From Burkholderiales bacterium (GTDB taxonomy: Bacteria > Pseudomonadota > Gammaproteobacteria > Burkholderiales > JAHFRG01), in NCBI GenBank assembly GCA_035543335.1, contig DASZZH010000007.1, positions 1 to 64,000 of the forward strand: DNA of 64,000 nucleotides. The letters run 5' to 3'. Below, one piece after another: positions 45,600 to 47,110 of this stretch (position 1 is its first letter; every line of letters begins with the position of its first letter). Under the pieces are notes generated by a model, which did no database searches, had not been told where the DNA came from, and worked only from the letters and a program-made list of their open reading frames with translations. The position numbers and the translations under genes were made by a program.

Positions 45600-45782
45600 T
45601 CATTCGTCGAGAAGCTTTCCGCCAACCGCCCAGTTCTCGCCGGCCAGCTTGTCGAAGGTGACGTGAGTGCAGGATTTGAGTTTGTGCGCGATGCGCTCGA
45701 GAATCTCGGTGATTTCCTCGGCGATCTTGCGCTTTTGTTCTCGAGTCAGAGTTCCAACCAAGCGGACATTCACGTAGGGCAC
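45600..45782 (-). CDS. 4-oxalocrotonate tautomerase-family small enzyme
   Basis: A 60-residue protein with the family's catalytic Pro directly after Met (MPYVNVRLVG) and Arg residues in the following strand and helix (TREQKRKIAEEITEI). The C-terminal HVTFDKLAGENWAVGGKLL is typical. Such proteins are hexameric tautomerases; the natural substrate is unknown. It overlaps the end of the uracil-DNA glycosylase gene by 13 bases. Confidence 0.88.
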   Translation of the reverse strand: MPYVNVRLVGTLTREQKRKIAEEITEILERIAHKLKSCTHVTFDKLAGENWAVGGKLLDE

Positions 45783-46431
45783 CAGACTTCCTTTTGCTTG
45801 CGCAGCTGTTGAGAAATGCGGGCGAACACCACCTCGAACATCTGCGGGGTAAGGCGCTTTGTCTGAGTATTATAACGGCTGCAATGGAAGCTATCGTATA
45901 AGGTGAGCCCGTTGCCAAGTTTATGCTCTGCACCGTGGGCAAAAGGAAAATCTCTCGCCTTCAACAATAACGACATGAGCACCGCCTGGTGTGCAATTCT
46001 TCCCAAAGCCAGGATAGCCGTATTCTCATTTAGAGCTTTAATCTCATGCTTTAAATACTTATTACAATTAACAATTTCTTCCGGGTTTGGTTTATTGGCT
46101 GGGGGTACGCATTTGACGGCATTGGTAATCCTGCAGCCGATGAGCTGCAAACCGTCCTTGCGGCTCTTCGATTCAACCAGGCTGGCAAAACCGAAACGAT
46201 GGAGCGTCCGATAAAGCAAAATCCCAGCGTGGTCTCCGGTAAACGGCCGCCCGGTACGATTGGCTCCGTGCAATCCGGGCGCCAGGCCGACGATGAGCAG
46301 CCCGGGTTTGGCGTCGCCAAACGCTGCCACCGGCTTAGCGTAATAGTCCGGATGCTCGCGGCGGATGCACTCCAGAAACCGGACAAGCGCAGGCAATCCG
46401 TGCAGTTAGTGGAAAATACCGCATGCGGCAA
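45770..46431 (-). pseudogene. Family 5 uracil-DNA glycosylase (UDGb), one-base frameshift near the N terminus
   Basis: Removes uracil (and hypoxanthine) from DNA. The main frame has GLAPGLHGANRTGRPFTGDHAG (pieces IVGLAPGLHG and NRTGRPFTGD), TNAVKCVPPANKPNPEE and DSFHCSRYN, diagnostic of family 5 iron-sulfur UDGs. The first two cluster Cys, NCTDC, lie in another frame that starts at TTG 46431 behind AGGAGGG. Inserting one C at about 46393 joins NCTDC to PALVRFLECIRRE. In the uncorrected frame, a TAA blocks extension beyond about 46405. Either a sequencing error in a CC run or a genuine mutation. Corrected length is about 220 residues. Confidence 0.8.
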
Positions 46432-46492: not shown

Positions 46493-47059
46493 ATGGCCAA
46501 AGTTCTCGCAACCGAAATCCGAGCCGGCAACCTGATTGAATTCGAAAAACGCATATGGCGCGTCCTCAAATGTTACCATGTCCACGTCGGCGGGCGCGGC
46601 GGCGCCTTCATGCAGGTGGAGATGAAAGATATTGAAGCCGGCACCAAGCTCAACCAGCGCTTCCGCACCGAGGAAAAAGTGGAGCGCGCATTTGTCGAAA
46701 GCCGGGACATGGAGTACCTGTATAACGACGGCAGCAGCTACGTGTTCATGGACAAGAAAACCTACGAGCAATTCAACCTCTCGGTGGAGTTCCTTGAAGG
46801 GCAGGTGGAGTATTTGCTGCCCAATACCGATGTCCAATTGAATTTTCACAATGGCAGGGTCATTGGGATGCAACTGCCGGCCAGTGTAGTGCTCACCATT
46901 ACCCAGACTGAACCGAATCTCAAAGGCGCGACGGCAACGAGTTCCTATAAGCCGGCCAAAACAGAGACCGGGTTGACGGTGATGGTGCCGCCATTTGTGC
47001 TGCAAGGGGAAAAAATCAAGGTGAGTACCGATTCCGGGGAATACATTGAAAGAGTCTAA
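46493..47059 (+). CDS. efp: Elongation factor P, alphaproteobacteria-like, Arg at the modification site
   Basis: Relieves ribosome stalling at polyproline. The 188-residue three-domain protein starts at ATG 46493 (MAKVLATEIRAGNLIEF). The tip loop is HVGGRGGAF with Arg35 aligned to the modified Lys34 of E. coli EF-P. Downstream text such as MQVEMKDIEAGTKLNQRF and ATATSSYKPAKTE is closer to alphaproteobacterial EF-P than to the EarP-type of Pseudomonas and Neisseria. No earP, epmA or epmB gene is nearby. Upstream frame to 46199 is antisense to the UDG gene and was discarded. Confidence 0.95.
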   Translation: MAKVLATEIRAGNLIEFEKRIWRVLKCYHVHVGGRGGAFMQVEMKDIEAGTKLNQRFRTEEKVERAFVESRDMEYLYNDGSSYVFMDKKTYEQFNLSVEFLEGQVEYLLPNTDVQLNFHNGRVIGMQLPASVVLTITQTEPNLKGATATSSYKPAKTETGLTVMVPPFVLQGEKIKVSTDSGEYIERV

Positions 47060-47085
47060 GGCTTCCCCGGCCTGCCGGTTGCTCA

Positions 47086-47110
47086 AGCCGCGCTCTGCCG
47101 GCTTTTATTT
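47086..47110 (+). terminator. Probable rho-independent terminator of efp
   Basis: Stem AGCCG (47086-47090) and CGGCT (47099-47103) around an eight-base loop, followed by TTTTATTT. The stem is short, so strength is uncertain. It overlaps the 3' end of the convergent CDF transporter gene. Confidence 0.45.

Follow-up and report, generated by a model that had tools for sequence, protein, structure and literature searches.

In betaproteobacteria, an arginine at the tip of elongation factor P (EF-P) is generally taken to indicate rhamnosylation by EarP. The efp gene of a Burkholderiales bacterium (GCA_035543335.1) raises the question of how such a protein works in a genome where EarP was not found. 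The gene is encoded on the plus strand (46493..47059) of the window, by which we mean the whole stretch of 64,000 nucleotides analysed (contig DASZZH010000007.1), and its ORF translates into a complete protein of 188 aa. EF-P models recognized this protein clearly, with all three EF-P domains of Pfam present and a match of 230 bits to NCBIfam TIGR00038 (EF-P; cut-off 185.8), and it was the only EFP_N match in the whole source genome (98.5% complete). The predicted structure had a mean pLDDT of 88.9 and matched EF-Ps in the PDB with a query TM of up to 0.88; as modelled, the fold is that of an ordinary EF-P. At the loop tip, Arg35 (codon CGC, 46595..46597, plus strand) occupies the position of Lys34 in E. 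coli EF-P, as an earlier note on this DNA had claimed, and of Arg33 in E. coli EfpL. The short texts quoted in that note (GTKLNQRF, ATATSSYKPA and GEYIERV) are all present in the translation. A promoter scan 5' of efp found none. On the 3' side lies a terminator-like hairpin with a T tail (47085..47104, plus strand) of a kind no commoner than in shuffled sequence.

The tip cannot be described as a plain Lys-to-Arg exchange, because the loop is also one residue longer, a feature which the earlier note missed together with the conservation of the motif across a large clade. The beta3-Omega-beta4 loop of the window EF-P is HVHVGGRGGA (residues 29-38; 46577..46606, plus strand), with residues 29-39 reading HVHVGGRGGAF in the translation. 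In alignments with Lys-type loops (HV-KPGKGGAF, HV-TPGKGVAC) it lacked the Pro at position -2 and was longer by one residue ahead of the tip. One additional residue before the tip was likewise found relative to EarP-type loops (EYN-KSGRNAAV), and the alignment with S. aureus EF-P showed a one-residue gap at the loop. The motif HVHVGGRGGA was identical in all 92 distinct proteins of the clade (113 loci), which were encoded by 83 DNA versions and used all four CGN codons for Arg35. Such invariance of the loop despite variation in the DNA indicates strong purifying selection. The 80 named loci are the best 80 of 148 relatives and are partly motif-ascertained, as HVHVGGRGG was one of two scan patterns. 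A set of 33 genomes was gathered by whole-protein search and is free of motif selection; here the same motif occurred in 32 of 32 loops read, with the loop of the one further member (G060) unread.

This set represents 33 of 300 genomes of the order, distributed over 12 families and with 69-100% identity to the window EF-P (the match in one member, G147, is 92 residues long). Six of the 33 genomes are less than 90% complete, so that single absences among them carry little weight. The best 80 of 148 named relatives belonged to Nitrosospira, Nitrosovibrio, Nitrosomonas and many uncultured betaproteobacteria. No clade member was present among the genomes from outside the order sampled in a phylum draw of 299, where the best match was 51%, and as far as sampled the clade consists of betaproteobacteria only, with ammonia oxidisers among them. 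It is a real, conserved EF-P subfamily. We found no description of it in the literature searched; an EF-P survey that PMC11611912 cites (Brewer and Wagner) lies outside that literature and may list such loops.

A decayed or specialised EF-P that has given up normal rescue activity would fit the unusual tip, and also the domain III loop, which in many clade members reads KGATATS or similar and not GDT, a motif with a role in this EF-P loop. We consider such decay very improbable, since the protein is strongly conserved, is the sole EF-P match in 37 of the 46 genomes examined by way of the named loci, and serves a genome with an ordinary polyproline load. In 301 called ORFs from the window and 20 sampled stretches we counted 245 PP and 32 PPP motifs, a count to be read with crude ORF calling and with a comparison genome (G010) of GC 0.46 against 0.57 in the source genome. 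The source genome showed no depletion, and loss of EF-P function was rejected on this measure; the ordinary load implies an ordinary need for rescue.

The earlier note had pointed out that earP is not adjacent to efp, and EarP (PF10093) was not found elsewhere in the source genome either by a profile search in which 0 of 14 control genomes matched, a result that says little by itself. That EarP was overlooked through a weak search is ruled out by the performance of the same model in relatives, of which it matched 45 of 60, and in the order, where it matched 249 of 300 genomes. EarP was present in 2 of the 33 long-loop genomes versus 247 of the 267 others (Fisher p about 2e-26, kinship uncorrected). 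Both EarP-positive long-loop genomes (G013 and G046) encoded an additional EF-P whose loop is of EarP type; its gene adjoins earP in G046 and is located on another contig in G013. We extended these checks to 46 genomes reached through 46 of the 80 named loci (17 Nitrosospira or Nitrosovibrio, 9 Nitrosomonas and 20 uncultured; several assemblies are also in the 300-genome set). EarP was found in seven, all of them Nitrosomonas, and exactly those seven encoded a further EF-P, at a distance of about 200 bp from earP; none of the 17 Nitrosospira/Nitrosovibrio genomes had a match. A second EF-P thus lies beside earP in eight of the nine EarP-positive long-loop genomes (G013, G046 and the seven Nitrosomonas), and all six second-EF-P loops that were read (four of the seven Nitrosomonas, G013 and G046) were of EarP type. 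Of the 39 EarP-negative genomes in this set, 37 had a single EF-P match, one had an extra fragment of long-loop type and one (G607) a different paralogue.

These counts bear directly on the idea that Arg35 is rhamnosylated after all, by a divergent or unassembled EarP. The sequence GGR would be a permissible context for it: P. putida EF-P with the exchange S30G keeps 96% activity (PMC6544042) and N. meningitidis EF-P is modified within the peptide GGRSSAK (PMC4739656). Nevertheless, a model that detects EarP throughout the order does so in only two of the 33 long-loop genomes, each of which has its own EarP-type EF-P, and in no Nitrosospira or Nitrosovibrio genome, which makes this explanation a very doubtful one.

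Long-loop genomes and EarP genomes were both present in families f6, f11 and f36, and the two systems therefore appear to replace each other. EarP has been lost outside the clade as well: 20 of the 300 genomes lacked both the long-loop EF-P and EarP. Nine of them gave no EF-P match to this query, and the others were G017 with a Lys-type EF-P, eight genomes of family f41 and two of family f40.

Several other departures from the usual tip were observed in the order. All eight sampled genomes of family f41 (L144, L145, L146, L147, L148, L149, L150 and L151) had a loop of the type TVKSGTGGGAF, with neither Lys nor Arg at the tip, and EarP was not found in them; a glycine tip in EF-P is mentioned as existing in PMC11611912. 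Two f40 genomes without EarP (G041 and G085) encoded EF-Ps about 29% identical to the window EF-P. The only f40 loop read (L143:1568-2182, G041) was YSPGCLAS, in which Cys occupies the tip and Pro position -2; the sequence background is that of EarP-type proteins. In family f48 (L138, L139 and L140) the long-loop Arg EF-P was accompanied by another, divergent EF-P paralogue with the loop HAGGGQFGG or HAGSGKFGS, which is also one residue longer; EarP was absent there.

We also searched for the enzymes that modify Lys-type EF-Ps, in 49 genomes comprising the 33 of GGRG type and 16 others. EpmA (TIGR00462) gave matches in all 49 genomes, none of them over the cut-off, which two controls exceeded. 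Most of the stronger matches fell in reading frames some 500 aa long, the size that lysyl-tRNA synthetase would have. EpmB (TIGR03821) gave matches in five of the 49 genomes, again none over the cut-off, which one control exceeded. The target of YmfI of the B. subtilis type is a Lys.

The gene neighbourhood was examined for modifying enzymes of other kinds. In the window, efp is surrounded by uvrC, a gene of the uracil-DNA glycosylase (UDG) superfamily, a CDF transporter gene and a beta-N-acetylhexosaminidase gene. The UDG gene, correctly identified as the neighbour in the earlier note, is divergently oriented (45770..46396, minus strand) and matched PF03167 with 95 bits, scoring below the NCBIfam family-4 UDG cut-offs. 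A UDG-like gene lay beside efp in 77 of the 80 named loci (best 80 of 148 relatives) and was divergent upstream in 72; uvrC and other genes of a housekeeping locus were the further conserved neighbours (neighbour families were named by eye, apart from those profile-searched). A conserved modifying enzyme adjoining efp was accordingly rejected: no gene resembling one was conserved in the 80 loci, a result that applies to the locus, so that a distant unrelated enzyme would escape it. Such an enzyme, another glycosyltransferase or an arginine-modifying enzyme unrelated to EarP and encoded away from efp, is the main alternative explanation for Arg35. Tip modification is needed by most EF-Ps studied, an invariant loop could reflect recognition by an enzyme no less than contact with a tRNA, and the history of EF-P modification is one of non-orthologous replacement (beta-lysine, aminopentanol, rhamnose). 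On the other hand, earP often adjoins efp, as epmB does in E. coli, and no conserved enzyme does so in the 80 loci, and the loop is lengthened as in the unmodified EfpL. We regard this alternative as unlikely, yet of the two options named in the earlier note, an unmodified EF-P and a modification of a new kind, both stay live.

Phylogenetic analysis of 87 EF-Ps with the loop columns left out placed all long-loop Arg EF-Ps in one group (support 99/96). Its sister was the Lys-type EF-P of genome G017, a member of the same order (support 100/94), followed by Lys-type EF-Ps of other pseudomonadote classes (including rows labelled alpha and f76/f109, which we take to be Alpha- and Zetaproteobacteria), while the EarP-type proteins were placed elsewhere in the tree. 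The branches of E. coli EF-P and EfpL were long, and the grouping of the former with the EarP type was flagged as doubtful; the monophyly of the clade and the sister position of G017 concern other branches. The position of the clade within Lys-type EF-Ps agrees with the earlier remark that the sequence background is unlike that of EarP-type proteins, and from sequence comparison the Arg tip seems to have arisen from a Lys-type ancestor, independently of the EarP type. The sister protein itself (L152:1567-2172) has the loop HVKPGKGGAF and a different gene neighbourhood; EarP was not found in its genome and was present in seven other sampled genomes of its family.

The alphaproteobacterial flavour ascribed to the protein holds with respect to its Lys-type background. 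The nearest sequences outside the clade were the G017 protein (58%) and Lys-type EF-Ps of other pseudomonadote classes (44-51%), with relatives in other classes ranging over about 37-51%. These distant relatives and the Lys-type background are what could speak for an alphaproteobacterial EF-P having been acquired recently by horizontal transfer, with a chance exchange of Lys for Arg in the source genome. The clade is, however, large (33 of 300 genomes), monophyletic and confined to the order in our sample, and its neighbourhood is kept in 77 of 80 loci. The earlier note had listed horizontal transfer among its possibilities; as a recent event in the source genome it is refuted by this spread, the conserved locus and the tree, and we give it hardly any credence. 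The clade may go back to an ancient transfer at its root, which would also fit with the unrelated EarP-type EF-Ps in the remainder of the order. The protein thus groups with those of other betaproteobacteria, as an Arg type of their own, and the EarP gene elsewhere in the genome that the earlier note had named alongside such a placement was not found.

The best-supported reading of these results is that the long-loop Arg EF-P probably works unmodified, in the manner of EfpL. A Lys-type ancestral loop of the form (H)V-KPGKGG would have changed to (H)VHVGGRGG by replacement of Lys by Arg at the tip, loss of the Pro at position -2 and gain of one residue on the beta3 side. Like other EF-Ps, the protein would most likely bind in the E site of ribosomes stalled at prolines, contact the tRNA and relieve polyproline stalling, and the longer loop may do the job of tip activation unaided. 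In these bacteria it would replace the pair of EarP and EarP-type EF-P. According to PMC11611912, E. coli EfpL has extra loop residues and an Arg33 that is unmodified by mass spectrometry; the authors propose that the loop makes up for the absent modification by its greater length and describe the extension as setting EfpL apart from all other EF-Ps. Unmodified Arg32 EF-P is stated to work to some extent in Neisseria (PMC4739656), and the S4 Table legend of the same paper gives Borrelia burgdorferi as having an Arg32 EF-P and no EarP. Volkwein et al. (PMC6544042), whose work treats a switch of E. coli EF-P from lysylation to rhamnosylation, give about 20% activity for the unmodified K34R variant. 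From these reports taken together we infer a working, unmodified EF-P. The low activity of K34R shows a bare Arg on a loop of normal length to be poor and counts against this reading, as does the difference that the EfpL extension comprises two residues and a Pro at position -3, whereas the clade loop has one additional residue and no Pro.

More broadly, the clade might represent a third route to a working main EF-P, in which a Lys-type protein was freed of tip modification through a longer loop and an Arg. This route would have arisen once, and would have displaced or been displaced by the EarP system several times in betaproteobacteria, including all sampled Nitrosospira, with Nitrosomonas isolates keeping both; we are evenly divided on this wider scenario. 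The clade breaks the rule by which an Arg tip is taken for EarP rhamnosylation in betaproteobacteria, and its main EF-P also breaks the rule, as put in PMC11611912, that a loop extension is the hallmark of EfpL. It provides a natural setting in which to ask why EF-P needs modification and how this need can be dispensed with. Nitrosomonas with both EF-P types would allow a comparison within one cell, and the long-loop protein may offer a modification-free EF-P for cell-free translation.

Compared with known systems, the long-loop Arg EF-P shares with the EarP-type EF-Ps of betaproteobacteria and pseudomonads the Arg tip, the missing Pro at position -2, the fold and the order of bacteria. It differs from them in a loop one residue longer than their seven-residue loop, in its Lys-type background and position outside their clade (EarP-type EF-Ps of the order are about 25-37% identical to the window EF-P), and in its genomes, as 31 of 33 have no EarP and the other two have EarP with its own EF-P. 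The Lys-type EF-Ps (EpmA, YmfI or unmodified PGKGP types) are its nearest relatives and share the conserved H and GGAF around the loop; the clade departs from them by Arg in place of Lys, the lost Pro, the additional residue and thus a loop without PGK, and by EpmA and EpmB matches that stay below the cut-offs. The EF-P of Borrelia burgdorferi is alike, going by its description in PMC4739656, in an Arg tip without EarP. EfpL (YeiP) shares the lengthened loop, the Arg tip and independence of EarP, and in our alignment the E. coli EfpL loop (NC_000913) is extended by one residue on each side of the tip. The window EF-P scored below the cut-offs of both EfpL/YeiP models (148 of 216 bits, and 132 of 264 bits for TIGR02178) and reads V32-G33-G34-R35 where EfpL has Pro at position -3; and whereas EfpL accompanies a Lys-type EF-P as its paralogue, the long-loop Arg EF-P is usually the only EF-P of its genome.
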